Of a stretch of 64,000 nt of DNA, positions 3,801 to 47,888 are shown in pieces (the first letter of the stretch is position 1; each line of letters begins with the position of its first letter). Both the position numbers and the translations under genes were made by a program. The stretch covers positions 7,626,001 through 7,690,000 of the forward strand of contig OY754468.1 in assembly GCA_963575645.1 (NCBI GenBank), written 5' to 3'. This DNA comes from Xanthostigma xanthostigma (taxonomy: Eukaryota; Arthropoda; Insecta; Raphidioptera; Raphidiidae). Under the pieces are notes generated by a model that saw only the letters and a program-made list of their open reading frames with translations, did not search any database and had not been told where the DNA came from.

Positions 3801-3960
3801 AAGTCTGTAGGCTTTCACGGCCGGTGTTGATCCAAATCTTCTTGGTTTCGGGGTTTGTATGCCGTGGTCCATTGGTATTTCTACCTGACGTTTCGTCTAC
3901 AACTGCGGTAGACATTCTCAAAGGCGATGTGGTAGCTACCACATCGCCTTTGATAATGTT
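3801..3960. repeat. Hairpin repeat, truncated copy of the 47.1-kb element
   Basis: Shares a long stretch with 47080-47210 (GGCTTTCACGGCCG, GCCGTGGTCCATTGGTA, ACGTTTCGTCTACAACTGCG). The right half is a 32-bp perfect palindrome at 3920-3951 around GTAGCTAC, then breaks off after TGATAATGTT. The minus strand carries TTGAGAA, T, a GTCTAC/GTAGAC stem and GAAAC, the core also found in other hairpin repeats here. Confidence 0.8.
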
Positions 3961-3964
3961 TTGT

Positions 3965-4216
3965 TGGGTTAGGATAAAATAATATTATTTTTTGAAACTT
4001 TTTTTTTGACGCTTACACTAACGCCATCGGTCGGATTTTTGGGTGAACGTCAAAATATTCAACAAAAAGAGCAAGGAGTATAGTTCAGTGTGTATTTATT
4101 TTTGAACTAACCTTTCTACCTGATAATTTGCTTGGTGAATTGAAAGTAAATTTTATTCTAACAAATAAATTTGTTCCGAGATTAGTAACTTCTATCTTTA
4201 ATAGTGTTCGGTGAAT
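3965..4216 (+). repeat. Dispersed ~250-bp MITE-like repeat, copy 1
   Basis: Matches the reverse complement of 23240-23500: GGTTAGGA at one end, then a GACGCTTACACTAACG/ATCGGTCGGATTTTT block, and TAATAGTGTTCGGTGAATA at the other. Unit length is about 250 bp. No ORF. Family unknown. Confidence 0.75.
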
Positions 4217-4222
4217 ATTAGT

Positions 4223-4944
4223 CAGTGGCGGATTTACAGATTTGCCGCCTGTAGGCTATTCAATTTTTGCCACCTCTGAATTTTGATACCTTAGTCCACA
4301 ATCATATCAATTACATTTTCTATCAATAAAATTCCAACTTTATGATTTGTGCTCCATCATCCTCGTTACATCAACTTTTCACGTATGGTTAGTATCATTG
4401 AGAACTGAGATACCGTGTCAGATCCTTGATTATTTTTGTCAGTATTTTTTACGCATAAAGAAATAATTTTCTGAAATTGAATTTGACAATTTGCTGCAGC
4501 AATCATGATTAGACCACCGATATTATATCAAGATTGAATTGTGTAAGCAGATCTCATAATAATTAGGTCCATGGAGAAACAATAAATTATAGTAATTAGG
4601 TATCAGTGAAGAAAATATGTAAAAATATCTAAATTTGGATTATAATATCGAATTGCGATATTCTAAAAAAACATGATCATTAAAGTATTTTTTGCAAAGG
4701 GTTTAGCAATTGTTCATGTTGAAATGGTATTTAGTATTTAGCACTGTATATAGGACTATATTTGGGTTTTTGTTAAATATTTTAATTTCTGTCCAATTTT
4801 CGAAATTCGTATTTTGTGTGTGCATAATAATTTTTTTTTAATTTTGTAAATCGAAATAAAAAATTTATTAACTAAGTCTGCCGCCCCTTAAAATTTGTCG
4901 CCCTAGGCTTCAGCCTACTCAGCCTGCTGGTAAATTTGCCACTG
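4223..4944. mobile_element. hAT-like MITE with CAGTGGCGGATTTAC ends
   Basis: The left end CAGTGGCGGATTTACAG at 4223 is mirrored imperfectly at the right (AAATTTGCCACTG ending 4944). Sub-terminal TGCCGCC/GGCGGC and TAGGCT blocks are also mirrored. CAGTGGCG-type ends are typical of hAT elements. I could not see a clean 8-bp target duplication. The interior is A/T-rich and non-coding. Confidence 0.6.
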
Positions 4945-5339
4945 AATTAATAGTAGTGTGCTATGAACATAATAAACTATATTGGAACTCGTTTAGAAGA
5001 CACGAGACCGCTCCTCCGCACCATATGTTGATTGCACGTTAATATCAATTATAATATTCTTGCATTATCTAGTGTCAAACACTTGACATTGAGGCCTGTC
5101 CGCCACACCGCCTATGTTTTTATATCCACGCATCCATTGAACACGATAATATAAACAAATATCACTCAACAACACATTGAATTCTGTTTTTTGCAAACAT
5201 CTGCCATTTAACCTACATTGTGAATAAATCAATAATTTTCTTCTCGTTCGCGGTCAGTGTTATATACAGAATGATTTGCAATATTTATACTGGGTTGCAA
5301 AAAGCGCGCGTTGTCAGAAAATCTGGTTTGGCAATGACC
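4945..5339. other. Nothing recognised
   Basis: Unique-looking A/T-rich DNA between two repeats; no ORF, RNA gene or clear repeat. Confidence 0.5.
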
Positions 5340-5830
5340 GTGTATTGTCAGAATTTTTGAAGTAAAACTTCTTTACGCACGCTTGATTTGGGGAGTAAGT
5401 TGGTAAATGCGTGACGAAAGATTTACGGAAACTGATCGCTGTGATCGGACGAGGCGAACGGAAGTTGAGAGGGAGATATAAGTTAGTGAAGATAAAAAGA
5501 GGATGACAAATACTTCACTGGCTAGTGGTGCCCTCAGGTGGCCGAAACAAATACTTCACTGGCTAGTGGCGTCATCAGGTAGCCGAAAAAATAAGCAGTA
5601 CTAACAGTAGAATGACACATACTTTACTTGCCAGTGGCGCTATCGGTTGACAGAAAAAAGTAATACTTTGTTCAATACATTAAATATTCTACGTTTAAAG
5701 TGAATAAAATTGTAAATTCATTTTAAAGTTCGTATTTTGTGAATTTTCGGGTGAATAATAACAAATTATGGCAGAAAGAAGTTTTACTTCAGTCGTGTGG
5801 TCTAAAGCACACTCGTTTTTTTTTTTTTTT
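5340..5830 (+). repeat. ~500-bp dispersed repeat, copy 1 (inverted copy at 26.4-26.9 kb)
   Basis: Runs in the same order as the reverse complement of 26400-26940: AGTAAAACTTCTTTACGCACGC, AACGGAAGTTGAGAGGGAGATATAAG, a short tandem of about 40-bp units (ACTTCACTGGCTAGTGG and variants at 5515-5640), AATATTCTACGTTTAAAGTG and GGTCTAAAGCACAC. The two copies differ by small indels. Short ORFs over it are incidental. Confidence 0.8.
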
Positions 5831-6039
5831 TAGTTGTAGTTTGAATTTTTCAACAAACAGATTTCTTACTGAAACCAGTTCCGACTGTGAGTCCTGTGCC
5901 GTTGTCAAATATTACGTTTAAAATACACATTTATTCATGGAGACTGGCGGTCGGAAAAGATTATCCTGTTATTTTACCACGGAAACTTGTAGGACTTGAA
6001 ACGAAAAACGTGGGGCGCATGCGACAGTTATATAAGAAG

Positions 6040-6370
6040 AGTAGAGAGTAGCTATCAATGAAAAAATCTTTTTACGAAAATATATCTGCGTCTCTTTCTT
6101 CGATGTAATTCCCTGATTTCTCCGATGATAGGATTGGTTGATGTACTTGTATTCAATCCGAATAAAGCATCTCTGTTTCAAAAACTTTGTCTTTTTCTAT
6201 GACGTTAACATGGCCGTACCCAGCTTTTGGCTCAGGAGGGGGCAAATTAAAAATTTCTTAAGCCGAGTCTCCTCCTTTGGATACGCTAGTGCTTACGACT
6301 TAAAAAAAGACAGAAGTATATGATTGCACCCTAATGGTTTGATTGCGATTTTATTCCTTTGCTCAATATG
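6040..6370 (+). repeat. Dispersed repeat, copy 1
   Basis: Shares AAATATATCTGCGTCTCTTT, CCGATGATAGGAT, TTTGTCTTTTTCTATGACG, TACCCAGCTTTTGG and GATTGCGATTTTATTCC with 28840-29195 (same strand) and with the reverse complement of 7250-7540. Together with the 7.3-kb copy it forms an inverted pair about 0.9 kb apart. Confidence 0.75.
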
Positions 6371-7249
6371 CTAGCCGCTGATGATCTCAGCTGTTCAGCG
6401 TCTATAAGCCACTATCTATCAATCCTAGCATCTACAGTATTAGGTATGTAAAAATATTGTAGCTATAGATGGAAATAAATAATTCGATTGTATAAATACA
6501 CGTCAGCACGTCGTATGTTCCTATGAAATGTTGTATTACGCATGTCAATTATGTCCGAATATGTACTTAGATGGAAAACGATAACTCGTGCGATGACTGA
6601 AACAATTTGAAAAGAATTCATCTAATCAAATATACTGGTTATTGTAATGTATAACATGTAAATGCAATATCACATCTGTTACGCAACATCAATGCTACAC
6701 TTCAATACATAAAATAATTGAATTAAAAAAGTGACAGCAATATTTTATCAATTTATATTGCGTGTGTTATTTTTACGTCATGTTAGTTTTTTGGATTCTG
6801 CTGGGATTTTACGTAAACTAATCGCCATCTACTCAGTATTTCGGTGAACTATCCTGTGCGAAGCGGCTCATGTAGTAAAGTATTGCGCGCTGCGTTTTTT
6901 TTTTGTAAATATTTGCTGTTTACAATATATTATGGAAGTTATGTTATCTAAAAATCGAAGAAGAAGCATGACATGTGTTGTGCAGTACCTTACTGTATTA
7001 GAGCAAATGTAAATGCTAATATTAAATTATTAAATTGATTTATAAACCGTATATTTTAATGCGGTTTCTCTTTGGCATTTATATTATGTAGAAAACAACA
7101 AAGTTAACTTAATCATTACAGCTTGAATCAACGATTCGGCCGCATTTTACGATGTGACCAGAACTCTCGATTTTTTTCCTTTCAATATAATTACGTTTTG
7201 AAGGATTAGTATCACCCCAACGACAAATTTCTTCTTTGAAAATATCATA
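6371..7249. other. Spacer between inverted repeat copies; nothing recognised
   Basis: A/T-rich DNA without a supported gene. It separates the inverted copies at 6040-6370 and 7250-7560, so the whole of 6.0-7.6 kb could be one composite element. Confidence 0.45.
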
Positions 7250-7560
7250 TACTTTTATTCTATACCGAACCTAGGAATAATATCGCAATCGAACCATTGT
7301 GCAAAGATATACCTATGTCTGTCTTTTTTTAAGCCGTAAGCATTGGCGTATCCAGGGGGGGGGGGGGGGCAAAACAAGCACGAGAGGCCCGGCTTAAGAA
7401 ATTTCTAATTTACCCCCTCCTGTGCCTAAAGCTGGGTACGCCCATGTTAACGTCATAGAAAAAGACAATCCTATCATCGGAGAAATCAGGGAATTACATC
7501 GAAGAACGAGACGCAGATATATTTTCGATACGCTTTGTTGCGTTCACTCACCGCTCATTG
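7250..7560 (-). repeat. Dispersed repeat, copy 2 (inverted)
   Basis: Inverse of 6040-6370 and of 28840-29195. It contains a run of about 15 G at 7357-7371. It shares ATACGCTTTGTTGCGTTCACTCACCG with the 28.8-kb copy only, so these two are the more complete copies. Confidence 0.75.
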
Positions 7561-7990
7561 AGTAGATAGACAATGATTCATATAGTTAATTAATAGGTGT
7601 ATGGAAAATAAATAAAACATTCGCATAGGGCGGCCATATTGAATATTTTTAAATGGACTGCGCCTCCCGGTAAAATCCTAATATATTTGGCAAAAATCAC
7701 GAAATTTTGCTGGACGTCAAAATCAAGTTTGAGTCGGAGTGGCGCACTGAGAGTTCCATACACTAAACAAATATCCGATCGAGCAACTTAGTTTTGGTAT
7801 CTGGCGCCATATAAAATATTTTTAGAGACTCTGAAAATCATCAGCTACCTAAGAATAAATGGATTCTTGTTGCGTTAAATTTTGATTGAAAGTATGGTAA
7901 TGGATATTTATTACAAATCTGATATGTTACAACCGCGAAGTTGAAATACCGGTGGTTTAGTTAAGAAAATTGATCTATACAAAATCACAA
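7561..7990. other. Nothing recognised
   Basis: Unique-looking sequence leading into the tRNA-derived element; no ORF or repeat identified. Confidence 0.45.
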
Positions 7991-8063
7991 GCCCGGCTAG
8001 GTCAGTCGATAGAGCATGCGACTGTTAATATCAGGGTCGTAGGTTTGAGCCCCACGTTGGGCG
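7991..8063 (+). pseudogene. Decayed tRNA-Lys(CTT)-like gene
   Basis: 73 bases beginning GCCCGGCTAG and ending CACGTTGGGCG closely match the eukaryotic tRNA-Lys(CTT) pattern: acceptor stem GCCCGGC, a D-arm with TAGAGC, and the T-arm box GGTTTGAGCC. The anticodon loop reads CTGTTAA instead of CTCTTAA, changing the anticodon to GTT, and the anticodon stem is mismatched. It is followed by the same A/T-rich tail as the copies at 28.1 and 43.0 kb. It is therefore part of a transposon and probably not a working tRNA. Confidence 0.7.
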
Positions 8064-9149
8064 AATATATTTTTATTTTTTTATTTTCCATATTCATGCT
8101 TTCTTCTAAGGCTTACATTTAAATTTATTTTAATTTTATTTATACGACTAATTAAAACTATAAATAAATCTATAATTAAAAGCTCATTTGAAAACTGTTA
8201 CAACTATAGGTACCTATATAAAAATAATTTACCTATAGTGTTTTCAATTATATATTTATTATATTTCATTAATTATAACAGTAATTATTGTTTTAAAAGA
8301 AATTTATTACTTAAAAAAATTGGTTGTCTGTAAAGTCGGTTTACGGACGATAGTTTTACGTGATAACGTATTCCGTAATACATAACCTAAACCTCCCAAA
8401 ATTTGGTTTCAATCCGCTTATCCTTGGTGTCGGAATGATAAGAAATGTCAAAAGTGACGTTTGCAACTTACAAAGTATTATGATCTAATAATAATTAGTT
8501 ATTCCAATACTTAACTTAGAAGGCTTTGCATTTCACAATATACTAATGTCAAAAAATTGAATTAAACATTAGAAATGCAGCTGTTTTCATGTTAAGACAA
8601 GACATACGTTTGCTTCTAATTTCCATGTACGGCAAACAAAGACAACCGACCGCGTCGCGCCATGCATTACACAACATTGCATTTATACAGCTATTTTTCT
8701 ATATTTTATATAAAATATTTTTCTATATAAATTTGTATAAAAAAACTGTTTAGGCAAATTCTGTTATACGAAATCTATGTAAAATGTTCTCCTCTTTCGT
8801 TTAAGACTGGTTTCAAACCGATCTGATTTAAATTGAGCGAGAAATTAGCAAAAAGCACGCACAGGGTCAGGCGGAACGTTAGGAACGTTACGTTACACTT
8901 TTTCGAACATGCAGCCGGTGTTTTATCAATTTATAAGATTGGTGATTCATCAATTTATAAGACGTTATCACGTCAAAAAAGTATAAATACCGCTTTTTAT
9001 CGACAAAAACTTTTGAACGGTAACTTCGATCATCATGAAATTTGGACACAAAATTCATCTTGGTAACCAAGATGAATGTGCGTACTCATGTCTGTCCCTT
9101 CCCCATTCGTTCTTTTGCACCCGGGTGAAACCGGACGAGACTGCTAGTC
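8064..9149 (+). mobile_element. Helitron family 1, 3' portion, interrupted by an insertion
   Basis: 8064-8313 matches the body of the Helitron at 27703-28425 (minus), and 8977-9149 matches its 3' end: AAAACTTTTGAACGGTAAC, GATCATCATGAAATTTGG, CATTCGTTCTTTTGCACCCG and a terminal GCACCCGGGTG hairpin followed by CTAGT. Between them about 660 bp (8314-8976) is absent from the other copies and carries mirrored ACGTGATAACGT/ACGTTATCACGT near its ends. The piece is thus split by a secondary insertion. The 5' end of this copy was not found. Confidence 0.7.
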
Positions 9150-9655
9150 AAAACGTATAGGACAATAGGAATACATGCATCTTGCATTCATATAATAATA
9201 AGAGAAATACCGACTTTGATGATAAAAATCTTGTAGATATAGTGTCGACTGTCTTTGCAATAGACAAAAGAAGGTTGTTACTAAACAACTGTTAAAGAAC
9301 AAAAGCTATGCGAGGAAATAATTGTTTTTGTAAATACATACATTATGCGAACATAATATTTATGTGCAAAATAAATAAAATTACTAATATAAATCCAGTA
9401 TGCTAACGTTTGTAACCAGTAGTAAATTATGTACAGACTATTATTGCATTTACGCATAACAAATGTAATCAATTTTGAAGCATCAAAACTGATTTATTCG
9501 TTTTGCATGAAAGATGAGAAAGACGACAATAAAAACAGAGTGGACAGTTAATTTCAATATTTTTTAAGTGAATGTAATTCTATAAAGTGAGCATATTTGT
9601 TTAAGAAGGTTGGGTCAAAAATCAAAACGATTAAAATTTCAAAGAGATGTTCTTC
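9150..9655. other. Nothing recognised
   Basis: A/T-rich non-coding DNA without visible repeats. Confidence 0.45.
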
Positions 9656-9675
9656 TCAGTGATAAGCATCATATC

Positions 9676-9792
9676 TAGTGTCCAACCGAAGCTTCAGCTT
9701 CGGCCACATTCGGCCAAAAAAACCACCTTCGGTGAGACCTTCGGCTTCGGCCAAAATAGGCCAAAGTTTTGGCCGAAGCCGAAGGTTTCTAG
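9676..9792. repeat. GGCCGAAG-rich inverted repeat (hAT-like MITE ends)
   Basis: Begins TAGTGTCCAACCGAAGCTT and contains several TTCGGCC/GGCCGAA copies in both orientations, ending TTTTGGCCGAAGCCGAAGG. The same end sequence (TAGTGTCCGACCGAAGCTTC on the minus strand) occurs at 40262-40345. Overlapping ORFs on both strands arise from the symmetric repeat and are not genes. Confidence 0.65.
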
Positions 9793-10033
9793 CAAGCGCC
9801 GAAATTGAACGAACTGTTACGAATGAGCGAGAGCGCGATGGACGTGGCGACTTCAAGAGATGATTAAAATTACCTTTTTATAGTCAATGTAAATATTCAA
9901 TTTTTTTTTTTAAATCATTTATATTATTAATTATAGCTTGTAACAGTTGTAGCCAATTTAAACTGAATTTCTTATAGGGTTTTTAATATTTCGGTTTCGG
10001 CCGAAGGTTGTGGCAATAGCTGATTAACTGCCC

Positions 10034-13610: not shown

Positions 13611-14153
13611 AAATAAATAAAATTGTCGACCAATTTTCTTTAGACTATATATTGGCAAAAATAAAATTGTAAATCAATATATATTAGAAATCGTGTCCAT
13701 CGAGACAATTATTTATAAGAATCGCAGGATTGTGGACAAAAAGTTCTTTATTAAGTGTACGACGTTTCGTCTATAAATTTTAAATTTTCATATTAATTGT
13801 ACTTGAAAAAGTCTAAATTTATAGACGAAACGTCGTACACTGAATAAAGAACTTTTTGTCCACAATCCTGCGATTCTTATTAATAATTATAAATCAATAT
13901 TACAAAAGATGTCGTTTCGATCCGGATTTGGATCAACTTGAGAAATAATCTAAAAAATATAAAAAATAATTAGTAGGTATATATCTATTTATTTTATAAT
14001 AGAATAAAGTTAATTAATTATCGAAACGTCATCTTTTGTAATAATTAATATCGATTTATAATTTTATTTTTGTTAATATAATAGTCTGACAAAAATTGAT
14101 CGACAATTTTATTTATTTGAAGAGTTCTATTCAGACGTTAATCAAAGATTTGA
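13611..14153. repeat. Nested set of three hairpin MITEs
   Basis: Outer element: AATAAAATTGTCGACCAATTTT at 13616 is mirrored by AAATTGATCGACAATTTTATT near 14093-14113; a compact relative lies at 23604-23712. Inside are hairpin C (13715-13880, arms of about 60 bp from ATAAGAATCGCAGG to GACGTTTCGTC) and hairpin B (about 13884-14061, arms TACAAAAGATGTCGTTTCGA against TCGAAACGTCATCTTTTGTA). B and C carry GAAACG beside a short stem (TAGAC and GGATC respectively). Confidence 0.8.
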
Positions 14154-24966: not shown

Positions 24967-25549
24967 TAAAATAATAACCGAAAGAAAAACTTTTACGGTA
25001 AAAATTTCTTTTGTTTATTTAGCCATCGATCTTTCACAAATCTCTTTTTGCACAGTTACGACAGTATTCCGTTAGCATAATATCGATCACGTCTGTCAAT
25101 CATCTTTGTCATTTCACAGCTAATATTAACAATGCTATTCACACTGTCGACTGCCGAGTGTCGATCGTACAACAAGATAAATACCTTTACACAGAAATTA
25201 AATGCCAATATTTCACAACTGATTTATGACGTTCCAAACGGAACGGTTGGCGTTCCCCAATTCGCTTCGAGTATAAATGTCGTGACGTGCCTATTGTTCA
25301 AGCTGTAATATTTGCAAATTGAACTAATAGAGATTTGTTTCTATAGGTATACAGAATGATTTTTTAGTTGATTCTTTTTGGATTTTACTCCTAATCAATT
25401 GGTGAGGCGTTTCGCTCCACCGCTTCAAGTGTAGCGTTACGCTCGTCCGCTTCAAAAGAGACAAACATATATATCTGTAGGATTTAACGTGCGAAAGAAT
25501 GAGATGGAATACATTACACAGCGTATCTAAGGAGTAAACTAACATTAAT
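24967..25549. other. Nothing recognised
   Basis: A GAGTATAAATG motif at about 25268 resembles a TATA box, but no gene follows it. The ORF at 25324-25554 (minus) has no recognisable features. Confidence 0.4.
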
Positions 25550-25762
25550 AACAAATAGTAAAAACAAAAAAAAAAAACGTTAAAATTCTACAAAATATTT
25601 TCTCTTCTCAACGATTGTTTAGGTCTTAGGACATTCAGTCCATCATCAGGAGTATACAGACATAAATACTGATGATGAACTTAATGTCCGAAACTATCGT
25701 TGAGAAGAGAAAATATTTTGTAGAATTTTCACGTGTTTTTGTTTTTACTATTTATTATTCTA
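25550..25762. repeat. Hairpin MITE with hammerhead-like core
   Basis: Arms run from AACAAATAGTAAAAAC to its mirror at about 25745-25762, with the inner stem ATTCTACAAAATATTTTCTC/CTTCTCAACGAT. On plus, CTGATGA at 25669, one T, a GAAC/GTCC stem, then GAAAC at 25690. On minus the partner arm has CTGATGA, T and a perfect GGAC/GTCC stem, but its GAAAC is mutated. Confidence 0.85.
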
Positions 25763-31037: not shown

Positions 31038-31317
31038 TTGAAACCAAATTTTGAGAGGATGTTTGGTATGCTAATATAAAATGCCCTATTATTTTTAGGA
31101 AAAATCGGTGCATGCCCAGATGAGATATATGTTATAACGGTGTTTTTTATATAACAATGGTATTTTTTTCATAACGGCTTATTTTTCTATTTATTTTTTC
31201 AAGAAAGTCGCATTAAAATTTTTTTTCCCTAAACTTTATGGTTTCGGAAATATTTTGAAAATAAAAAAAATCAGCTGTTCTTTTGTTTTGTAGATCTGTT
31301 AGAAATAAACTAGTTAA

Positions 31318-31723
31318 GAGTATTCGTCCCTGCAAACACCCCCTGCACCCTTCATCTCAAATCTTTTCCCCTCGCCTAAAAATGGTTCGTGCTCTCCCGA
31401 CGATATTTTTGAAGCTAGAGGGTTCTAGTAAACGCCAAATGAAAGACAAAGAATCAGACTACAGATCCTTCAGGCGAATTTTTTGAAAAAAAATTCCTGA
31501 AAAAACTTACAACCTTTTGAAAAAAATAATAAGTTACGTAGGCGAAACTGTTTTTAAAAAGATTCGCCTGAAGGATCTGTAGTCTGATTCTTTGTCTTTG
31601 ATTTGGCGTTTACCAGAACCCTCTAGCTTTAAAAATAGCGTCGGGAGAGCGCGAACCGTTTTTAGGCGAGGGGAAAAGATTTGAGATGAAGGGTGCAGGG
31701 GGTGTTTGCAGGGACGAATACTC
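31318..31723. mobile_element. Foldback MITE with 163-bp arms and TTAA target duplication
   Basis: TTAA at 31314-31317 and 31724-31727 flank a 406-bp element starting GAGTATTCGTCCCTGC, with arms 31318-31480 and 31561-31723 about 95 percent identical. An 80-bp A/T-rich loop separates them. TTAA duplication suggests the piggyBac or Kolobok superfamilies. ORFs inside are incidental. Confidence 0.85.
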
Positions 31724-32010
31724 TTAAGTATGCTTTGATTAATTTTTACATGACGTGGAACATATTATGTAGGTGACGATGCCAACGAATAGCAAATATC
31801 ATTATGAAAAACTAGCCATTACCCGCGTCACGTCACGTACTATTAAAAACGTTATTTTCTTTATTATACTACTTATATCAAATGTCGACATTTTGATGTT
31901 GGAATGGTCGTGGACCCAATCGGCTGGAATTTTTAGTCTATGTCCTATTGTATCTACGTCGAAGTTTTTCACCAAATACGTTATATATGTGAATGTTTCT
32001 ATTGTTTCAG

Positions 32011-35100: not shown

Positions 35101-38100
35101 CATTTTTATACCGCTATATTGGCATGAAAAGTAGCTATTTTATAGGACGCTGTGAAAAAAACTTTATATATTTCTGGGGATGGGCCTAGTAAGTGTCTGG
35201 TAAATGACAAAGTTTAGTATAATGTTTTAAAAGTGAAAAATTACAATACAAAATAATTATGTTTGGGGAAAAACTTGAGGCAAGTTATACTTTTTTAAGG
35301 AACGATATGAAATAATTTCTATAATTGGTTATTGGCACTGAGAGTATTCTTTTTGACTAAAAACTAACTCCATTCGAAATTCTTTCTTGAAACTAAACAG
35401 TGACCAAATCATATACATACTATTCGCACGAAGAATACTTGCTTATACTTATTTTAAAAGATTACCATTAAACTATGAAAACCAAATTACCTACCCATGA
35501 ATCTCTTGATGAGGGATTACCTACATTTTTGTTAACATCATGGGTCAATTACTAATACCTAGTTGTAATCGTTTCTTGATGATGCTACATTGCCAACATG
35601 GTTAGCGAAATTTACGTCGAGAAAAAAATGTTTAGTAGTAATTTATACTATCCAGCAAAACAAGGGCGTAGATATTTTATTTTGGAGGGGGGAGGTTAAA
35701 GCAAACAATCAATATTTTTTAAGTTTTATTCATATCACACAAGAATACTCACAAAGGAAGATGCCAAGCAAAATATCAATTTCCAAACCAATTTTACAAT
35801 TTTTTTTTCAAGAAGTGTTTCTAAATTTTATTTTTTAGGAAGAAATTCGTATTATTTTCAGTTTTATTTTTTATTATTATGATCCTGGGGGGGTAATTAC
35901 CCCCTATATCTACGCCCTTGCAGCAAAATACCTACTAGTCTAATCAAAATAAACATTTCAATTTACTATAATTCGCATAGAGCTGAAATTTGATACAGGC
36001 GTTAAGTACACTATGATAAATAAAATATCAAACGTCCCCATCGATCCTACATCTGCTTCAAAATTTATTCAAGGTCAAAAATATCAGTTTTTTGCACTTT
36101 TCTCGTGAACGGTTTACGTTATCTAAAAATAGGTCAGACAAAAGTTGTAGATCATAATTTATTATTTATTTTCGATGTATGAAATCGCCATTTCAAAAGA
36201 ATGGTGATTCGTAAGAAAAAAAGTATAAGAACAATTCTTGTAATTCGTGAAACTTTCGGCTCTTGTGGTAATATACCGCAAATTCGGTATGTCTTGAGCA
36301 TATTTCTTCTAGACCGTCAAAATATCTGTGTTGTATAATCGACTTTCACAAAAATGTGGGTAGGTATCCCTTTAATGAGAAAGTTTTCTAAAAATGGTAG
36401 TCTTTTATTATTACCTCACGTAAAATTGCACCACTAACCGTAACCTATAACCTGAACATACGCACAGAGCCCTACTGCATCGGGTATCCTCGCTCGTCCC
36501 GATTCACGATGCGGAACCGAATCGATCGATTCGGGCTTATTATCAGTAGTCGAACACCAAGAACCATCTCCACCAACGCTGCAGAGATCTGCTAGTCAAC
36601 GCAGCGGAGCGGTGGGTATTCAATCATCATCAAACAACACTCACCATCATCAATATCATCATATTAACAACAACAACAACAACATAAGCCATCACAGTGA
36701 CGCTTTGGCAGATCTTATAGCTAACCTAGCCAATGTTTGCACGTCATCTCCCGCCTCGTCTTCTAGTGTTGCAACAACAGCTGAAGCGGTTCAGGTGTAC
36801 AGTGATAACAGTAGTGACACAACCACTAACTCACCTGCATGGCATCACCACCATCACCAAAATACACAGGTATCATCACAGTATCATCGGTAGAGCCCGG
36901 ACAGTAAGGTCTCTTTAACTCCTTGTAGGCCAGATTTCGCACCCAAAAACTCAATGCATTACAAAGACCACATCATAATATTAAGAACTTTACTATCCAT
37001 GTTTTCAGCATAAAGTAGTGTTGATCCAATAGAATGTTACGATGAAGGAAGGTTTTAAATGAGGATCATACATAAATAAGCTTTACCAATGTTTCGCTAG
37101 TCGCCAACGTTTCGAAAAATTTATTTTCATCTTCAGGGCCTCAAGCTGGTCAAAAGGTGGTAAATTGTTAAACTTAACTCATAATAAAATGATCATGTAT
37201 ATTGTTTTAACAATTTACCACCTTTTGACAAGCTTGAGGCCCTGAAGATGAAAATAAATTTTTCGAAACGTTGGTTACTTGCGAAACATTGGTAAAGCTT
37301 GTTTATTTATGATCCTTACCCAAAACCTTTCTTCATCGTTTACTTTCCATGTTTTGACAAAGTCACATTCGCGATTTCTCTTAAGGCCGCTGCACACATG
37401 GCTGGTTTTGTCGCTAGGTTCCAAGCTTGCTGTGGCGCTGGATTTCGTGACGGTTTGTAATGTGTGGACTTGAAGCTGGATTGTAGATGGTTTTTTTTGA
37501 CCGTACAATGATAGTTAAAATGTTAACAAGAGTGGACGTTTATTGTCTCTTAACAGAACAGACACACTATGACGCCATGCTTGTTAATGACGTTTGCTCA
37601 CGTGACAAGATACTGTTTTCTGATTGCTTCCTGTTAAAAACCAGCAGAGAAACATGCACGAATAATAGCCCCGGTTGTAATTTTGAAATCCAGCTTGTAA
37701 CCACGCACGCGAGCCGGCAGTCCATCCTCGCAGCCTGCACAAGTCCGAGCAGTGATTCGAGTGGCAACATCAGTCTCGTGTACAACAGCCTTTAGACGAG
37801 CATGCCATGAGCAGATATTCGATATTCTACTTTGTTTCACATTATGAAAGCATTACATTGCTTACGTGGTTTTTCATAAACAAGGAGTTAGGGACAACCT
37901 TATCTGGTTTTCAAACATTAATGGAGCTAGGACTGGAAAGAGTAGGCAATAAGTTCAAAATATCTTTATATATAAAATTCTAGTGTCACAATTTTGGCCG
38001 CGCTAATCTCCAAAATCATTTAATCGAATTTAATGAAATTTTGTAAATGTGTCTTGCTTGGTGTGCAACTTACGCTATAGGATAGTTTTTGTTAAATATT

Positions 38101-41100: not shown

Positions 41101-44100
41101 TATGGTAACTAATGATGCAAAACAATGCTGATTTGAGTAAACAAATATCTGGTTTTCTGCAAGATTCTCTCTCTTAACTGATGACACGTTCACTTATGGC
41201 AAGCATACGAACTAGCGTACTCTAGTTACTATCTATCTCTATGGTCTGGAGTCTGAACCGATCTAATGTACTAGTGATGGTGTCGTTTTCATTAATTAAT
41301 TTGTATTGATATAAAAATATTTGAAAACTGCACTAAAATTTGCTGGTTTATGCTGGTCTAGCGTGCTACAACGTGCAGGTTGCAGGTTTGTGCTGTACAT
41401 AGGTCGTGCTTGATAAGTGTGCGCGGTCATTTAGAGTGAACAAAAAAGGTTATCAAGTTTATAAATTTGTTTTTGGCAAAATCACAAGAATAAATAAATA
41501 ACCAGAAGTATAACTCTCTATTATAACCATTACTCATTTTTGTTACCTCGGTGCTCGGTTAACCTAAGTTTCTATCCTGAAATGGTCAGTGCTGTACTGT
41601 CGCAAGTGTTGAAAGGTTTACAGGGAATTGTTTCTTACGCGTTCGGTTTTTATCTACATGTTTTATTTGATTTAAAAATTGTGCTTGCCATGATAGAAAC
41701 AAAACCATAAATATATAAATTAATTAGATAAACCTAAGGAAAATCAATAAAATTTCATCTTTTCCTTGGCATCGGTAACCACACACAAAACACCGCCTTC
41801 GAGTTATGATTCTGGTTATTTATATATTCTTCTATTCATACCGTCTGAAGAAGTTATTTTCAACCAAACAGTTTGGTTTATTTAAATTAAAATTGTGTTC
41901 AGCTACAAGAGAAAAATAACTTGCTGGAGAAACAATATTTTCTTCTATAGTCCGTTTTTTTTTAATTTTATTCTTTTTACATAAATGGCTAAACAAGTAA
42001 TTGTAAAAAATAGCTATACTAAAGAAATTACTGTGACTGAAAACTGTAGAAAAAACAAAACAATTTAGTTACTTATCCACACCATTTTTTTTATCTCTAC
42101 AAATATTATAAAGAGGTAAAGTTTTTAAGTTTGAATGTAGGAGGTAATCTCCGAAACTACTCGTCTTATTTCAAAAATTGTTTCACCAATAATGGACCTT
42201 TAAGATGGACATAGGCTATATAATATAAAGCGTTTTTCGTGGAGACCAATTTGGGAACGTAAGTCGACGGAAAAACGGTGACAAACTACAAATTCGGGTG
42301 AAGCCGGACCGGGTACATTTCGGTTTCAGTGCCGTTTAGTTTTTCTTGATGATTGGAGTATAAATAAAATAGTTGTGGTTAAAAAGTAACTAAATAGTTG
42401 TTTTTAAAAGTATATACACCTACACCTCGTAAATTACGTAATGGTACTGACTGTAACAATGTGTTTTGTGTTTTTTTTATACATACCTATATATTATTAC
42501 GAAACAATGTAAACATCATGAATATGTTAACAGCTTGAAAAACTGCAACACAAGCTCGTATCTACGCATATCTATCCTTTGTTTCAAACAATATATTTTC
42601 GCATGAAAAAAGTATAGTCATATTATATCTATTTCTTTTGTACAAAAGTCGAATGAACCATTTAATTGCTTAAAAATTAGTCAAATTGATATTTGAAATT
42701 ACCTAAATTTCTATTCCATTCACATGCATTAAAATAATGAATGGCAAATCACTGCATATCTATACTAATATATAAAACTGAAGAGTTTGTTTGTTTGTTT
42801 GAACGCGCTAATCTCAGAAACTACTGATTCAAATTGAAAAAAAATTTTTTTGTTGGATAGCCCATTTATCGAGGAAGGCTATAGGCTATATAATATCACG
42901 CTACGACCATTAGGAGCGGAGCATTAATGAAAAATGTTGCAAAATGTATCTCAAAAATAAGCTTCTATTCAGGTGAAATGCACTAACTTAATATACTCAT
43001 AATTCATATTAGCATTGTGACTACGTAACGTCGAATGGCTCAATCGGTAGAGAATGCGATTGTCAATATCAGGGTCGTGGGTTCGAGCCTCACGTTGGGC
43101 GAATATATTTTTATTTTTTTCTTAATTTTCTACATTGCTTTCTTCTTAAGCTCACATTTAAATTTATTTTAATTTTATTTAATTAATTAAATAAAATTAT
43201 TAGTTAAAAAAAGTATAAATACTGCTTTTTATCGACAAAAACTTTTGAACAGTAACTCCGATCATCATGAAATTTGGACACAACATTCATCTCGGTAAAC
43301 TAAGATGAATGTATGTACTCATGTTCATCCCTTACCCATTCGTTCTTTTACACCCGGGTGAAACCGGATGGGACCGCTAGTTATACATAAGAGTGAATAG
43401 TCCAGGAGGCGAAGATATTGTTGACTGTATTGATCTTAGGCTTAGCAATTGCAAAATTTACAACAAAAGATTTAAAATATTTGTAAGTACAAATTAAATG
43501 GTTCATCTTCGTAATTTGCAAAGTGAATTCCTTCTAGTAAACTTAATATTTGTCTAAATTATTTATCTAAGATTGCACCCTATTATCTTTGGCATGTAAA
43601 AGCACAGATTTTGTAAAACTAGTTGGTGAATCAACAATAGTAGGTACGAATGACTCGCAGGCTATTTCCTGCCCCTGATAGCGCCACTAATAAGTAAGGT
43701 ACACGTCAAGGTCATTCAAATATAACAACTGGTTATACATTAATTTTGTTTAATCGGTTTGATGATTGTGAAATCATTAAATCCTTAATAGTTAGACGGT
43801 AGTTATGAAAATCATTAATTTAATCTCTAGTAGTTTGTCCAAAGGCTTTGACGCATATCTTACTTGTCACTAGCACTATCTGATGAATAAAAAAATGTTA
43901 GCCTTCAGAAGATTAGTTTGTCTTTAAAATTTGCTGTAGAACAATACCTCAGTAAAAATGATACTCCTCATTTATAGATCTAGAACTACAATCTATGTGA
44001 AAGATAGTAATCATATTAGTTTCACGTTCAACTGTGATTGGACAGTAAAGGATTAATCAAATAGGCAAATCCTTTGCGGGACGTACCGATTATGCCCAGC

Positions 44101-47100
44101 TGTATGGATGCGTTTAAACTGGCACAAATAGTCGCGTGAGTTGCATAAATCATAGCCGAATTTTGCACTTAATTCGCGTCTCGCGCGGGATTTGGTTCCG
44201 TTTGATTAATTCTTTAATTAATTCAATTAATTGACTCGGTTGAAACCTGTTTTACCCATTATTATATCCTGAACTATCACTAGTAAAGATTGAAACAAAT
44301 AAGGGTAGTCCTATATCGACCCAAAATGAGCCCCGCATCCAATTTTTGTTCTTCCTCTTTTTACCGGATCTAGTCTGGATCTTCTTATGAGCTCCAGAAG
44401 ATTGACCACTAGATTATCCTGTGGAATGATTCCATCCTCATCTATAATGTAATCAAAGACGGTTGTCTTCCTGTAGGCTAGAGCCACACATCGGAGCACG
44501 ATATGGGTGGCTGTCTCATCCTCTATTTCACAAAATAATATGCTGTAATGAATTAACAAGAATGGTACGTTATTAACTATAGATTTTTCAACAGCAAGGA
44601 CATGTCAAGTTCTCTTTTGATGAACGGAAATACGACCACCGAATACATCCATCAAATTTCGACATCGAACGGCAGCGGTCCACCACGTAGTGGAACACCT
44701 AGCGAAAACATATACCAACAACATAGTCCTAAGAGTCCAACTTATAATGGATCATCATCTCCGACGGTATATTATGGCCATTCAAGAAGATCATCCGTGC
44801 ACTCCAACAGTGAACCTCCACAAGAAGTACCGGCCGCGCACGTCAAATTTGTGCGTGACACTTCCAAGTACTGGTACAAGCCGACCATCACCAGAGAAGA
44901 AGGTATGTATAATAAACTCCATTACAATGTATTTGTGGAACTGTGATCCGAAATCTTCATTATTACATTATGGTTGAAGGCGAAGTAAGGTGTAATGATC
45001 AAAACCGGAATAATGATGTTAAGTTTTACTATTTATCTAACGTTTCGACAGCATTCCTAATTCATCTGATGATAGAAATAGTAAAACTTAACCTAGATTT
45101 CGTTGTGCAACTTCTTAAAATAGTTCCACTGTGTTCACTGTTTATCATTGCTTTACTAGGTGATCAGAACTTTTCCATGCGTATTCTAAACTTTTGGAAG
45201 CTCCAATTGTTTATATATAATAATAATAATAATAAAGTTTATTTATTCCGTTGACATAAATGTGTGGAACAAGTCAAACATAGAAATTACAATGAGGTCG
45301 AAAAAAATTCCTGGATTGAATAAAAAGTGTGCTGAATTAAGAGACGCTTGATGGTGCGTTTGAAACAAGATAGGCTATTAATGGATTTAACATTAGCCGG
45401 TAACTGATTATATAATTTTATAGGCATAGAATTTGGGCCTTTAGCAAACAGATTTAAATGGTGCTTCGAAATTGTTAGCTGATCATTATTACGTAGAAAG
45501 TGACAAGTAGTGTCGCTAACTTTCGAAAATGTGTTAATATTTGATTTAACATACGTTAAGCAATTATAAATATATAAAGAAATGACTGTTAAAATTTGAT
45601 GTTTTTTAAACAGAGGGCGGCAAGAGTCTCTATAATTTGAAAACGACATCAGTCTAATTATTCTTTTTTGCATAATAAGTATATCGCCAATACGCGTGGA
45701 GTTACCCCAACATACAATTCCATAACTGAGCGTGGATTGGATACAACCGAAGTAATATGTTCTTAATGTGTCAATATTTACGGATTTACGTAGATGGCGG
45801 ACGATATAGCAGTATGAGGCCATCTTATCAGAAATAACATTAATCTGCTTATGCCAATTCAGTTTAGAATCAAAATATATACCTAAGAACTTTTCATCTG
45901 ATGATTGTTTAATAGATTTGCCATTAAATTTCAGTAAAACATTTTGATCCAACTCTCTAGTGCTAAATTGAAGAAAGGCCGACTTCGAGTTGTTTAAAAC
46001 AAGGCCATTCATATGGCAAAATTTTTGCATGTTGACCGCACAAACATTAAGTTTATGTGAAAGTTCAGGTATATTGTGTGCGAAGGTGGTCACAGAAGTA
46101 TCATCAGCAAACAATGTTGTAAAATTATTAGCACCAAGATTGGAAACAACATCATTTATAAATAAGATGAAAAGTAAAGGACCCAGATTACTACCTTGGG
46201 GAACTCCAGTTGTAGTGGCTAGAGGTTCAGAATAAAATACACCGTTGTCGTTTTTAAGCGCCACCTTTTGTGAACGATCTAACAAGTAAGAATTCAACCA
46301 GTTACGACAAACTCCATGAATACCATATGACTCTAACTTATTGATTAAAATCACATGATTAATAGTGTCAAAACATTATTCATTTCTGCCATTTCAGCTA
46401 TAAGTATGCTTCGTGATCAACCGCCCGGTACTTTTGTCGTCCGTGATTCTAATTCATTCCCAGGCGCTTTTGGAATGGCTTTGAAAGTATCAACACCACC
46501 GGCAAACGTGCAAAGCAAATCAAATAATGGAGATGAGTTAGTGCGTCATTTCCTGATTGAACCGACGTCACGCGGCGTCAGACTAAAAGGCTGCAGCAAT
46601 GAGCCAGTATTCAGTTCTCTATCAGCACTTGTTTATCAACACTCGATCATGCCGCTGGCATTACCATGTCGACTTCTCTTACCAGAAGGAGATGGCTCCA
46701 AAGTAGTCGAGCCCCAGGCCAGCTTAAGTACTGCACAACAGTTGTTGACTCAAGGAGCAGCGTGCAATGTTCTGTACCTGTTCACTTGCGACATGGAGTC
46801 GCTTACAGGACCGCAAGCCATCAGGAAAGCGGTGTTGCAACTCTTTATGCAACGGCCATTACCAAAAGCGGCGGTCGTTCATTTCAAAGTGTCTGGACAA
46901 GGAATTACTCTAACCGACAACAAAAGAAAGTTATTCTTCAGAAGACATTATCCAGCTAATACTATTTCACATTGCGGTATGGACCCAGAAGATCACAGAT
47001 GGAGTCATTCAAGTGACGAAACTGGAATGCCAATCAGTTCCAAGTAAGTTTGACGAAATTCTTGACATTCTGTTTATATCCAAGTGGGTAGGCTTTCACG

Positions 47101-47888
47101 GCCGACCTTGATCCAAATCTTCTTGGTTTCCGGGCTTGTATGCCGTGGTCCATTGGTATTTCTATCTGACGTTTCGTCTACAACTGCGGGAGACATTATC
47201 AAAGACGATGTGGTAGCGGGCGAAGTCACAGGTAATAATGCTTTGATAATGTCTACCGCAGTTGTAGACGAAACATCAGGTAAATACCAATGGACCACGG
47301 CACACAAGCCCAGAAACCAAGAAGATTTGGGTTCTGTTTATAATTACTAAATAGATATGCACGTTCTAAAAGATAATGAAAAAGTCAGGAAAGTCAGAAT
47401 TGACAAGCTTTTTTGAAAACTGTTTTTGTTACGCAATAATGCGTATGTTGCTTGCTGCGCTTCCACATTAAGTAACATAATAGTTACTCATGAGTTATAA
47501 GTTACTAGCGGTTTGCCTGCGAATTCGTCTGCGTTTTATAGATGATATATTGCGTATCCAGTTAAATTCTTTTAGATAATATCCACCTCCACCCCGATTG
47601 GGTAGTGTGTTCAAAAGACGCATGGTAGTGGGCTTCTATTCCACTATTTTAATAAACTTCAAATACTGATTAATTTTAAAAAAATAAACAAAATGAAATG
47701 TGTTACTAACAATGGCTTTTTTTCACAGTCGTTGTTTTGGATTTGTCGCCCGAAAACCTGCCAGTAACACAGACAATCAGTGCCACGTATTTGCAGAATT
47801 GGAACCGGAACAACCTGCAACAGCAATTGTAAATTTCGTTTCGAAAGTCATGATGACAAGCGTTCAGGGCAAAGCCAACATTGTTTAA
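32011..47888 (+). CDS. by: Tensin (blistery orthologue), 3' part of gene, eight exons
   Basis: Joining 32011-32190, 33459-33735, 36468-36869, 39429-39628, 40467-40538, 44595-44902, 46398-47043 and 47729-47888 gives one frame of 747 residues ending at TAA (47886-47888). Every junction is GT-AG with matching phase. Residues 1-465 are a Ser/Pro/His/Asn-rich linker; about 466-575 an SH2 domain with FVVRDS holding the phosphotyrosine-binding Arg (495); about 599-745 a PTB domain. Tensins link the integrin tail (PTB) and phosphotyrosine proteins (SH2) to actin at focal adhesions; the fly gene is blistery. The first listed exon starts with the third base of a codon, so earlier exons exist upstream, probably outside the window. 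An N-terminal PTEN-like region was not seen. Confidence 0.93.
32261..32610 (+). mobile_element. Helitron-like 5' segment
   Basis: TCTAAATATATAAAAGGAAA, repeated GACTGACTGA and TGGGTTGGAATTTGGCACAC match the usual 5' layout of insect Helitron-like repeats. The 3' end was not identified. Confidence 0.5.
32619..33349 (-). mobile_element. hAT element remnant with 8-bp target duplication
   Basis: GTCAGGAC at 32611-32618 and 33350-33357 is an 8-bp target duplication around a 731-bp element starting TAGAGAATACAATCCCG and ending in TA. The ends hold many ATCCCGGGAT-type motifs. The minus ORF 32877-33152 gives the hAT C-terminal dimerisation region: YLSIPPTS-like [18 protein letters not shown], then [19 protein letters not shown]. 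The rest of the transposase is deleted, so the copy is non-autonomous. Confidence 0.9.
33459..33735 (+). CDS. by: Tensin exon B
   Basis: Acceptor TTATTACAG, donor AACGAG|GTATGT. The first base completes an Arg codon split with exon A; then 92 codons, ending in phase 0. The product holds [16 protein letters not shown], an acidic run (DDDDD), [14 protein letters not shown], and a Ser/Thr-rich basic tail. GC content is clearly above the introns. No folded domain recognised: linker region. Confidence 0.85.
33825..34050. repeat. Dispersed repeat with GTCTGTCTGTCTGTC
   Basis: TTCCGTACCGCAAAAGG, ACCCTTATAGGATCACTTTG, then (GTCT)n and CGCCTAGAATCATGAAATTTGG: a layout common in lepidopteran dispersed repeats. 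The window end (AAGGGTTCCGT at 63987) may be the end of a related copy. Confidence 0.55.
35661..35920. mobile_element. hAT-type MITE with perfect 8-bp target duplication
   Basis: CAGCAAAA at 35653-35660 and 35921-35928 flanks a 260-bp element beginning CAAGGGCGTAGATAT and ending with its exact inverse. Sub-terminal G runs and C runs (GGAGGGG; CCCCC) are also mirrored. A relative is visible at about 38950-39020 (CAAGGGCGTCTATA). Non-coding. Confidence 0.9.
36468..36869 (+). CDS. by: Tensin exon C (His/Asn/Ser-rich linker)
   Basis: Acceptor ACGCACAG, donor ACACAG|GTATCA; 134 codons, phase 0 at both ends. It encodes [36 protein letters not shown], then His/Asn runs ([15 protein letters not shown]) and a Ser/Thr-rich end with WHHHHHQN. 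The symmetric phase allows skipping without frameshift. The acceptor's pyrimidine tract is weak, so the exact start is less certain than the frame. Confidence 0.82.
37041..37338. repeat. Hairpin MITE with hammerhead-like core
   Basis: Arms of about 130 bp: GATGAAGGAAGGTTTT at 37041 is mirrored by AAAACCTTTCTTCATC ending 37338; the inner stem is GCCAACGTTTCGAAAAATTT against AAATTTTTCGAAACGTTGG. On plus, CTGAAGA (37231-37237), T, a GAAAA/TTTTC stem and GAAAC (37264-37268). Confidence 0.85.
37382..37800 (+). repeat. Repeat family B, longer copy
   Basis: Begins TTAAGGCCGCTGCACACATG. It contains CACTATGACGCCATGCTTG, GTTTGCTCACGTGACAAG and CTGATTGCTTCCTG, as in 60158-60530. Overlapping ORFs on both strands reflect its higher GC content and are not supported as genes. 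Confidence 0.7.
37963..38380 (+). mobile_element. Helitron family 3, copy 2
   Basis: Starts TCTTTATATATAAAATTC and ends AGCACCCGGGTGAAACCGAG then GGCCCGCTAG|T. The TACTCAAAGCTATTAGTTC unit is repeated inside as in 21722-22110. Confidence 0.8.
39429..39628 (+). CDS. by: Tensin exon D
   Basis: Acceptor TGTGTTATAG, donor CCAGCG|GTAAGT. It encodes [18 protein letters not shown], then a Pro/Ser-rich stretch with [12 protein letters not shown], and [15 protein letters not shown]. The PRTPY-N block is characteristic of the region before the SH2 domain in animal tensins. It ends two bases into a codon. The minus-strand ORF over this exon is a shadow. Confidence 0.9.
39784..40237. mobile_element. ~450-bp MITE with family-B-like ends
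   Basis: TGGCTGGAAACAGTGCTCGA, then TGACGGTCAGCGCGTA, at the left is mirrored by TACGCGCTTACCGTCGG and TCGAGCACTGTTTCCAGCC at the right. The outermost bases (CTCCACGCGTGGCTGG) resemble family B ends (GCTGCACACGAGGCTGG). Confidence 0.75.
40262..40345 (-). repeat. GGCCGAAG hAT-like end, copy 2
   Basis: The minus strand reads TAGTGTCCGACCGAAGCTTC then GGCTTCGGCCAAAATGG, matching the start of 9676-9792. Confidence 0.6.
40467..40538 (+). CDS. by: Tensin exon E (72-bp micro-exon)
   Basis: Acceptor GTATTTATAG, donor TTATAG|GTATGA. It completes an Arg codon, encodes [20 protein letters not shown] plus IY, and ends two bases into a codon. Its length is a multiple of three and its phases match on both sides, so it can be included or skipped without changing frame. 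Confidence 0.82.
41021..41253. repeat. Inverted-repeat MITE, diverged arms
   Basis: GGTCTGGACCATAGATATAT and GAAGTGAACGTGTC on the left are mirrored by GACACGTTCACTTA and TATCTCTATGGTCTGGA on the right, with an inner AAGAAAGAG/CTCTCTCTT match. Confidence 0.6.
42104..42312 (+). mobile_element. Helitron family 2, 3' portion without CTAG
   Basis: Matches the inverse of 15823-16050: GGAGGTAATCTCCGAAACTA, GGACCTTTAAGATGGACATA, ATTCGGGTGAAGCCGGAC. The terminal CTAG is replaced by GGGTAC. Confidence 0.65.
42759..43380 (+). mobile_element. Helitron family 1 with tRNA-Lys segment
   Basis: 622 bp from TCTATACTAATATATAAAAC to CACCCGGGTGAAACCGGATG and GGACCGCTAG|T. It contains a tRNA-Lys pseudogene and the A/T-rich body, shortened relative to 27703-28425. 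Non-autonomous. Confidence 0.85.
43030..43101 (+). pseudogene. tRNA-Lys-like segment in Helitron
   Basis: GCTCAATCGGTAGAG (D-arm), a mutated anticodon region (ATTGTCAATATC), and GTGGGTTCGAGCCTCACG (T-arm) are clear. The acceptor stem is mutated (GTCGAAT against TTGGGCG). It retains an almost intact B-box and is not a plausible functional tRNA. Confidence 0.65.
44311..44559 (-). mobile_element. LINE C-terminal (CCHC-like) fragment
   Basis: The minus ORF reads [20 protein letters not shown], then [21 protein letters not shown]. It resembles the C-E-E-DET--H-L--C-ALA..R block that ends many insect LINE ORF2 proteins after RNase H. It is antisense to tensin and stops 35 bases short of the exon F acceptor region. 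Confidence 0.6.
44595..44902 (+). CDS. by: Tensin exon F (linker and start of SH2)
   Basis: Acceptor TTTTTCAACAG, donor GAAGAAG|GTATGT. It encodes [50 protein letters not shown], then [20 protein letters not shown], the first strand and helix of the SH2 domain. It ends one base into an Ala codon. Family knowledge: tensin SH2 domains begin with K-YWYKP..SREEA, which is matched closely. Confidence 0.95.
45020..45090. repeat. Short hairpin with ACGTTTCG
   Basis: TAAGTTTTACTATTT at 45020 is mirrored by AAATAGTAAAACTTA ending 45090; the loop side carries AACGTTTCGACAGCATTCC and CATCTGATGATAG. It shares GAAACGTT (minus) with the other hairpin repeats, but its stem is degraded. Confidence 0.7.
45205..46375 (-). 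mobile_element. 5'-truncated LINE (reverse transcriptase), antisense in tensin intron
   Basis: The minus frame is open from the left end of RT block 2 ([18 protein letters not shown], coded from about 46375) through [27 protein letters not shown] (the catalytic A-DD motif), [16 protein letters not shown] and LSYGIVCWG to a YSIQEFF end with a stop at 45287-45289. About 355 residues are intact without stops, so this is a fairly young insertion. A short 3' UTR ends in a (TTA)n tail (45220-45238 as AATAAT on plus). It lacks the endonuclease and N-terminal RT. Clade not certain (CR1/Rex1/jockey group). Confidence 0.9.
46398..47043 (+). CDS. by: Tensin exon G (SH2 core and PTB start)
   Basis: Acceptor TTCTGCCATTTCAG, donor TTCCAA|GTAAGT. 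It completes Ala, then [20 protein letters not shown] (phosphotyrosine-pocket Arg in FVVRDS), [39 protein letters not shown] and [10 protein letters not shown] (SH2 end). The PTB follows: [60 protein letters not shown]. It ends two bases into an Asn codon. Every core tensin motif appears intact. Confidence 0.97.
47044..47728 (+). other. Tensin intron G-H with palindromic repeat
   Basis: 685 bp; 47080-47332 is a hairpin repeat. 47333-47728 is otherwise featureless. Confidence 0.8.
47080..47332. repeat. Hairpin repeat with hammerhead-like core, full copy
   Basis: GGCTTTCACGGCCGAC, TTGATCCAAATCTTCTTGG and GCCGTGGTCCATTGGTA on the left are mirrored by TACCAATGGACCACGGC and CCAAGAAGATTTGGGTT on the right. 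On plus: TTGATAA (47243), T, a GTCTAC/GTAGAC stem with a 7-base loop, and GAAAC (47270). A truncated copy lies at 3801-3960. Confidence 0.85.
47729..47888 (+). CDS. by: Tensin last exon H (PTB end)
   Basis: Acceptor TTTTTTTCACAG. It completes Asn, then [42 protein letters not shown] and a short tail ending NIV and TAA. This is the last strand and C-terminal helix of the PTB domain. Confidence 0.97.

Follow-up and report, generated by a model that had tools for sequence, protein, structure and literature searches.

The DNA analysed here (the window) is a 64,000-nucleotide stretch of the insect Xanthostigma xanthostigma (contig OY754468.1, positions 7,626,001 to 7,690,000), searched within its 623-Mb host genome of 28 contigs. 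Its foldback repeats carry a small recurrent motif, and pairing, core and layout indicate that the copies are very probably minimal type I hammerheads, or decayed versions of them, located in the pseudo-long terminal repeats (pLTRs) of several families of Penelope-like elements (PLEs). The motifs most likely are, or descend from, ribozymes that would act on tandem PLE transcripts, cutting them as dimers joined through the stem III palindrome. An initial annotation had described a heptamer YUGANRA, one extra base, a short stem-loop and GAAAC, and had suggested a hammerhead; that reading holds at the level of sequence, with covarying helices, a core pair, GAAA and an NUH site. To that description we add stem I, the cleavage triplet NUH and a stem III that is palindromic and has no loop.

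Hammerhead-like motifs in the window foldbacks

The full motif runs in the order stem I upstream strand, YUGANRA, one base, stem II, GAAA, palindrome, H17 and stem I downstream strand, where stem III is a palindrome from A15.1 with no loop, mostly ACGT. We searched the window with a descriptor that required GAAA, NUH, a stem III without a loop, and minimum lengths of 4 bp for stem II and 3 bp for stem I. Five matches were obtained (3921 minus, 13803 plus, 37136 minus, 37242 plus and 47202 minus), compared with a mean of 0.005 and a maximum of 1 in 200 dinucleotide shuffles, and GAAA, A15.1-U16.1 and the NUH site are present in all five. The descriptor reduced to stem II and GAAAC was less special, with a shuffle mean of 0.19 and maximum of 2. 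A covariance model (R1), whose scores lean towards structure since its seven equal-length rows, one from the window, were picked for pairing, found six window places with E < 0.001, including a decayed copy at 13903-13950. The copies and the insertions that hold them are as follows.

3802..3959 (approximate limits), family A terminal-repeat insertion: a long, tailed arm on the minus strand and a short inverted remnant at 3937-3959
3879..3929, minus, minimal hammerhead, family A: stem I GCCU/AGGU, core UUGAGAA (U3-A8), extra U, stem II GUCUAC/GUAGAC, GAAACGUC; model E 0.00099
13681..13889, head-to-head terminal-repeat insertion, 13.8 family: 11-bp duplication TAAATCAATAT at 13670-13680 and 13890-13900
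13795..13842, plus, minimal hammerhead, 13.8 family: stem I GUAC/GUAC (5 bp), core UUGAAAA (U3-A8), extra A, stem II GUCUA/UAGAC, GAAACGUC; model E 3.2e-11, the sequence itself being in the model
13903..13950, minus, decayed hammerhead resembling the GATCC...GGATC family; model E 3.9e-4
25547..25759, head-to-head insertion, 25.6 family: arm homology starts at the core
25617..25651, minus, decayed hammerhead, 25.6 family: GAAAC lost, reads ...GTCCTAAGACCTAAAC
25669..25694, plus, partly decayed hammerhead, 25.6 family: one mismatch in stem II
37006..37345, head-to-head insertion, 37.2 family: 10-bp duplication TCCATGTTTT at 36996-37005 and 37346-37355
37098..37144, minus, minimal hammerhead, 37.2 family, left arm; model E 0.00024
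37234..37280, plus, minimal hammerhead, 37.2 family, right arm: stem I GGCC/GGUU, core CUGAAGA (C3-G8), extra U, stem II GAAAA/UUUUC, GAAACGUU; model E 3.1e-5
47079..47331, head-to-head family A insertion: 11-bp duplication TTCTGTTTATA at 47068-47078 and 47332-47342, long tail on the left arm
47160..47210, minus, minimal hammerhead, family A, left arm: stem I GUCU/AGAU, core UUGAUAA; model E 0.00036
47236..47285, plus, decayed hammerhead, family A, right arm: GAAACAUC, stem I just 2 bp; model E 0.079

Five of the six instances initially listed as ending in GAAAC do so (3921 minus, 13803 plus, 25669 plus, 37242 plus and 47243 plus), and the sixth, 25617-25651 minus, does not; the copies at 37136 minus, 47202 minus and 13903-13950 minus had been overlooked. 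The five foldbacks had been taken as unrelated repeats, whereas the 3.9- and 47.2-kb copies belong to one family, leaving four families. Intact genomic copies of the 25.6 family have stem II GGAC...GTCC without the mismatch seen at 25669, and one of them (locus L078) combines stem I CUC/GAG with an 8-nt palindromic stem III, ACGATCGT. Unconstrained folding in ViennaRNA gave both hammerhead helices for the 13.8-family monomer, which lends slight support, and for the 37.2 monomer, where the extra U was placed in a wobble with G12; the 25.6 and family A monomers gave folds other than the hammerhead.

Pairing of stems I, II and III

Pairing was counted by position, as the alignment misplaced the 3' strand of stem II owing to differences in loop length. 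With one extra base, the paired fractions at stem II positions 1-5 were 0.95, 0.83, 0.98, 0.98 and 0.86 among 42 distinct sequences, compared with 0.02-0.55 with no extra base and 0.14-0.60 with two. Summed over positions 2-4, pairing reached 2.79 against a shuffled mean of 1.33 and maximum of 1.76, and several types of Watson-Crick pair occur among the families at each of positions 3-5. G10.1-C11.1 opens the stem in 40 of the 42 sequences, the C being fixed by the pattern. The covarying stem noticed at the outset is thus borne out by pairing of 0.83-0.98 at positions 2-5.

Stem I was assessed on 40 distinct stem II sequences, chosen without regard to stem I. At positions 1-4 the paired fractions were 1.00, 0.82, 0.75 and 0.72, followed by 0.12 and 0.62 at positions 5 and 6, and the sum over positions 1-3 (2.57) exceeded the shuffled mean of 1.56 and maximum of 1.99 (2000 shuffles); the core is therefore enclosed by stem I with no selection on that stem. 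The rows for stems I and II include near-relatives and do not represent independent events. Stems I and II covary across families.

Stem III was examined in 12 stem II families drawn with a pattern silent on the sequence after GAAAC. A palindrome from A15.1 followed by H17 occurred in at least one copy of 10 of the 12, where chance is about 0.08 per random tail and higher for multi-copy families; one of the two exceptions is a canonical hammerhead without the extra base. These palindromes differ between families (ACGT, ACATATGT, ACGATCGT and ACGTGTACATGT), with lengths of 4, 8 and 12 nt. Without a loop, such a stem III would form only between two copies.

Genome-wide counts and the 3-8 core pair

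Genome counts are pattern matches in which stems were not required, with the reversed pattern as control. The C3-G8 class, CTGANGAN{8,22}CGAAACGTH, gave 18,052 matches against 18 in the control, an enrichment of about 1000-fold; a lack of genome-wide enrichment had been named in the initial annotation as a refuting outcome. With TTGANAA in place, the U3-A8 class gave 5,693 matches against 135, and the mismatched C3/A8 class (CTGANAA) gave 631 against 31, many of which, by eye, are single changes of C3-G8 families. These counts cover three of the four classes: C3-G8, U3-A8 and C3/A8. The core is thus CUGANGA with a 3-8 base pair, C3-G8 and U3-A8 lying far above C3/A8, and YUGANRA is this C3-G8 pair covarying to U3-A8. 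A looser pattern, CTGATGAN{1,25}GAAAC, gave 4,842 matches against 728.

Family A has U3-A8 in all 48 cores aligned from 30 loci, 38 of them UUGAUAA, and several further U3-A8 families are present in the genome. Members of a family are mostly near-identical to each other. In viral contigs there were 72 pattern matches, none of which satisfied the full descriptor, and the family A pattern had 0 matches.

Association with putative Penelope-like open reading frames

At locus L167, two inverted open reading frames (ORFs) of 442 aa lie between two motifs of the 13.8 family, so that this family adjoins a PLE-type ORF. The two ORFs (L167:538-3135) overlap head-to-head and are nearly identical in sequence, which suggests a fairly recent two-sided insertion. 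Homologues of the L167 ORF numbered 226 proteins at E 1e-3 or better; among the 120 listed, Pfam placed RVT_1 in 97, GIY-YIG in six and both in two, and the named ones among them were mainly from insects. In a PDB sequence search the ORF had just two weak matches to group II intron-like reverse transcriptases (RTs), with E 0.08. The putative PLE assignment rests on the RT/GIY-YIG combination in the homologues, on recognised motifs and on the layout.

When the loci were searched by tblastn with the 120 listed proteins and the L167 ORF as queries, 12 PLE-type ORF matches were found in 11 loci, mostly C-terminal ends. At 10 of the 12, an intact same-strand motif lay 136-203 nt downstream of the match end, and these cases involve four families (13.8, A, GATCC and GCTG). 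The Penelope connection raised initially holds. No complete PLE-type ORF was recovered among the loci examined.

Layout of the foldback insertions

Opposite-strand partners were found at 25 of the 30 fetched family A loci. We compared 26 head-to-head pairs, 24 from 29 loci and two window copies, with L101 (the 3.9-kb window copy) left out. Flanks had at least 8 bp in common in 16 of the 26 pairs, with 12 bp in eight; at L103 the common 8-mer is not adjacent to the arm ends, and the pair used for L111 was a stray short match that makes its row uninformative. The common flank length averaged 8.96 over the 26 pairs, against 5.58 (maximum 6.54) for shuffled pairs. The two outer ends differed by 26-43 nt in 20 of the 26 pairs, a figure obtained with a query that included the long tail and so favoured long-tailed arms, and the inner arm ends were ragged. 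In the window, target duplications of 10-11 bp flank three of the five foldbacks (13.8, 37.2 and 47.2 kb). The layout expected of PLEs, with pLTRs, an inverted partner, an optional tail on one arm and a duplication, is therefore seen in family A and in the 13.8-, 37.2- and 47.2-kb foldbacks.

In the 25.6- and 47.2-kb foldbacks, arm homology begins 0-2 bases from the 5' end of the core, and cDNA ends may cluster there. The idea that inner arm ends mark the cleavage site was rejected, as homology starts near the core's 5' end in three of the five window foldbacks and not downstream at the cut site.

Proposed mechanism and alternative explanations

In the mechanism that we propose, the stem III palindrome would pair between two ribozymes, either in tandem PLE transcripts or in two RNAs, and the dimer would cleave 3' of NUH, perhaps helped by the PLE protein. 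The foldbacks are very probably insertion units, each made of two 5'-truncated copies joined head-to-head with their outer ends at the tail, and many have target duplications on either side. Reverse transcription would be primed on both strands of a staggered break, start inside the beginning of the element and run upstream through the ribozyme. The PAc enzyme is reported to cleave and extend both target strands, with reverse transcription starting inside the template (PMC11167929); applied to this genome, two-strand priming and an internal start would give a pair of cDNAs that meet head-to-head. Since the two copies of a foldback are antisense to one another, its transcript would have the two motifs paired together; the window copies are therefore probably inactive, and foldbacks in general are for the most part probably dead ends, not functional ribozymes.

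Several observations weigh against this account. Rfam hammerhead families had zero matches in the window even at E 10, and loci L078, L087, L103 and L156, which carry the minimal motif, had no Rfam hammerhead match at E 1; no minimal motif of the window or of those loci rose above an Rfam hammerhead gathering threshold. None of the listed homologues of the L167 ORF is named Penelope, and a direct Pfam scan of that ORF returned no RT or GIY-YIG match. The motif lies 795 nt from the ORF match at L168, no intact motif lies downstream of the match at L119, and none of 20 further loci, the 37.2 and 25.6 families among them, had a PLE-type ORF match. No convincing duplication was found in 10 of the 26 family A pairs or at two of the five window foldbacks: the 3.9-kb family A insertion has only AT-rich 8-mers in its flanks, and no flanking duplication of at least 8 bp was found at the 25.6-kb foldback. 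The tail bias of the family A query belongs here too, as does the fact that palindromes of the rotifer Penelope have been ascribed to self-priming on an antisense template (PMC3846280).

The alternative that survives best, although we consider it unlikely, is that the motif derives from PLE hammerheads but has become an RNA or DNA structure that does not cleave, retained because it binds protein or because it forms the start region of the element, with the extra base and U3-A8 as marks of lost catalysis. The uniform U3-A8 of the 48 family A cores speaks for it, as does the report that the PAc hammerhead showed no cleavage without its protein and that insertion in vitro did not need cleavage; the same source nevertheless mentions earlier self-cleavage of a PLE hammerhead at 3-25 mM Mg (PMC11167929). 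Also in its favour, a review describes what minimal PLE hammerheads do in vivo as unknown. Against it, U3-A8 covariants were reported active in vitro (PMC3088659). Of the viroid data on an extra base at position 10, the moderate fall in trans-cleavage rate with A favours this alternative and the faster cleavage with U speaks against it (PMC3705267). Also against it, the NUH triplet, stem I and the palindromic stem III are retained or covary from family to family.

That the foldbacks are DNA transposons resembling miniature inverted-repeat transposable elements, with the motif as a transposase-binding hairpin, is very improbable. Their long inverted arms and flanking duplications of 10-12 bp would suit it, whereas outer arm ends differ in most family A pairs, inner ends are ragged, PLE-type ORF ends lie between the arms of some larger copies in four families, and the covarying helices fit hammerhead geometry; the transposase-recognition structure offered at first as an option is not needed. 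The weakest proposal, recent descent of all copies from one ancestral hairpin with covariation reflecting shared ancestry, accommodates the near-identity within families and is scarcely credible given that many different stem II sequences keep pairing above shuffles, with several Watson-Crick types at positions 3-5 across families, and that stem I pairing is well above shuffles on rows not chosen for it.

The extra base at position 10

Among 100 listed places of the C3-G8 pattern, 78 had a stem of at least 3 bp, all with one extra base (A 48, U 30), and 22 lacked a stem of that length. In a second 100 listed places, 43 carried a stem of 4 bp or longer, with an extra U in 25, an extra A in 17 and no extra base in 1, and 57 lacked such a stem. 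The 60 distinct stem II sequences in the loci had an extra A in 36 cases, U in 22, G in 1 and C in 1, and the C10 form recurs among family A matches. The rule of one extra A or U is strong, not absolute.

The extra base had been regarded as a departure from the known core, yet it has a precedent at exactly that place. In the plus-strand hammerhead of chrysanthemum chlorotic mottle viroid (CChMVd), an A inserted between A9 and G10.1 causes a moderate drop in the trans-cleavage rate, and at this position C or G is very harmful while U raises the rate 3-4-fold (PMC3705267). A/U usage here follows the tolerance of the viroid at position 10. Where alignments of known hammerheads have insertions between CUGAnGA and a stem, these amount to one or two bases at most (PMC10085705), a limit within which the present motifs stay.

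In extra-U families, A9-U-G10.1 reads AUG. No AUG arises in the extra-A families, and a start codon therefore cannot explain the extra base in general. We raise as a tentative possibility, on balance doubtful, that selection conserves the A or U at position 10 in PLE hammerheads, where it would be more than a tolerated slip and would tune a slow, dimer- or protein-dependent ribozyme; in extra-U families the core would build a start codon (A9-U10-G10.1), and folding or cleavage and translation of one RNA would be mutually exclusive. We found no mention of an extra base in PLE hammerheads in the literature searched, which did not include the two primary PLE hammerhead papers.

Other features of the window

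Long near-perfect inverted repeats at 3-271, 1521-2625, 31311-31730, 50089-50361 and 62779-62899 had no full descriptor match and may be other foldback elements. Matches of the foldbacks to microRNA families were under the curated scores and probably reflect any long hairpin. RT-like ORF pieces at 45287-46375 minus and 61686-62057 minus are, as we take them by eye, of the non-LTR (long terminal repeat), jockey-like kind. An ORF at 62145-62567 minus with two FDDYGHMRFG repeats is presumably sulfakinin-like, judging by that motif, and the window ORF list also holds what we take, from the peptide, to be a tensin-like exon; together the two point to an insect.

Relation to known hammerheads

Approximately 24,000 pattern matches in many families with differing stems form a natural test bed for PLE hammerheads, in which one could ask which core positions are held, how the dimer palindrome and the position-10 base behave, and in what order cleavage and reverse transcription take place. 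Minimal type I PLE hammerheads were reportedly described by Cervera & De la Pena (2014) and by Lunse, Weinberg & Breaker (2017), whom we know through citations and reviews. PLE mini-hammerheads are thus already published, and U3-A8 covariation and a position-10 extra base each have precedent.

Reviews describe the hammerheads of PLEs as minimal and of type I, without helix III, and as dispersed by the thousand in many animal genomes; cleavage as dimers is considered possible, and the role is given as unknown (PMC6155905, PMC7761336). This openly acknowledged gap is why such a test bed matters. The published PLE motifs share with those described here the type I order, a reduced stem III thought to be dimer-dependent, the pLTR location and the dispersal in thousands. 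Set against the review descriptions, the near-universal single extra A or U is what distinguishes the motif, and it is its one unusual feature.

The layout of the foldbacks equals that of the rotifer Penelope, in which an inverted pLTR stands beside a direct one with a palindrome at the most often head-to-head junction, together with duplications of 8-10 bp and an optional 31-bp tail on one arm (PMC3846280). PAc, the Anolis Poseidon hammerhead, has its ORF start codon where stem II begins, downstream of C3 and G8 (PMC11167929), and the extra-U families are alike in this respect. However, PAc is a lizard element that was tested with its protein, and the extra-A families have no AUG at that place.

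Natural hammerheads in which C3-G8 covaries to U3-A8 have been described, with covariants active in vitro (PMC3088659), and this covariation is common to both sets; several examples are given there, compared with thousands of matches in several families here. The CChMVd plus-strand hammerhead likewise has one extra base between A9 and G10.1, although it belongs to a viroid and the comparison made here covers that position.

The window copies are inverted pairs of minimal motifs with the extra base, and not the direct tandem repeats of canonical hammerheads that define retrozymes. Canonical metazoan retrozyme hammerheads share the type I core and are present in this genome at L091 (G000:C1, near 5.417 Mb), where retrozyme-like copies stand on opposite strands at 374-447 plus and 95-141 minus. 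Rfam scored this locus at 36 bits for HH9 (below the gathering threshold of 52) and 35.7 bits for Hammerhead_1 (above the threshold of 34). Unlike the minimal motif, the canonical plus copy at L091 has no extra base; these canonical hammerheads have a stem III that is not palindromic and are detected by Rfam.

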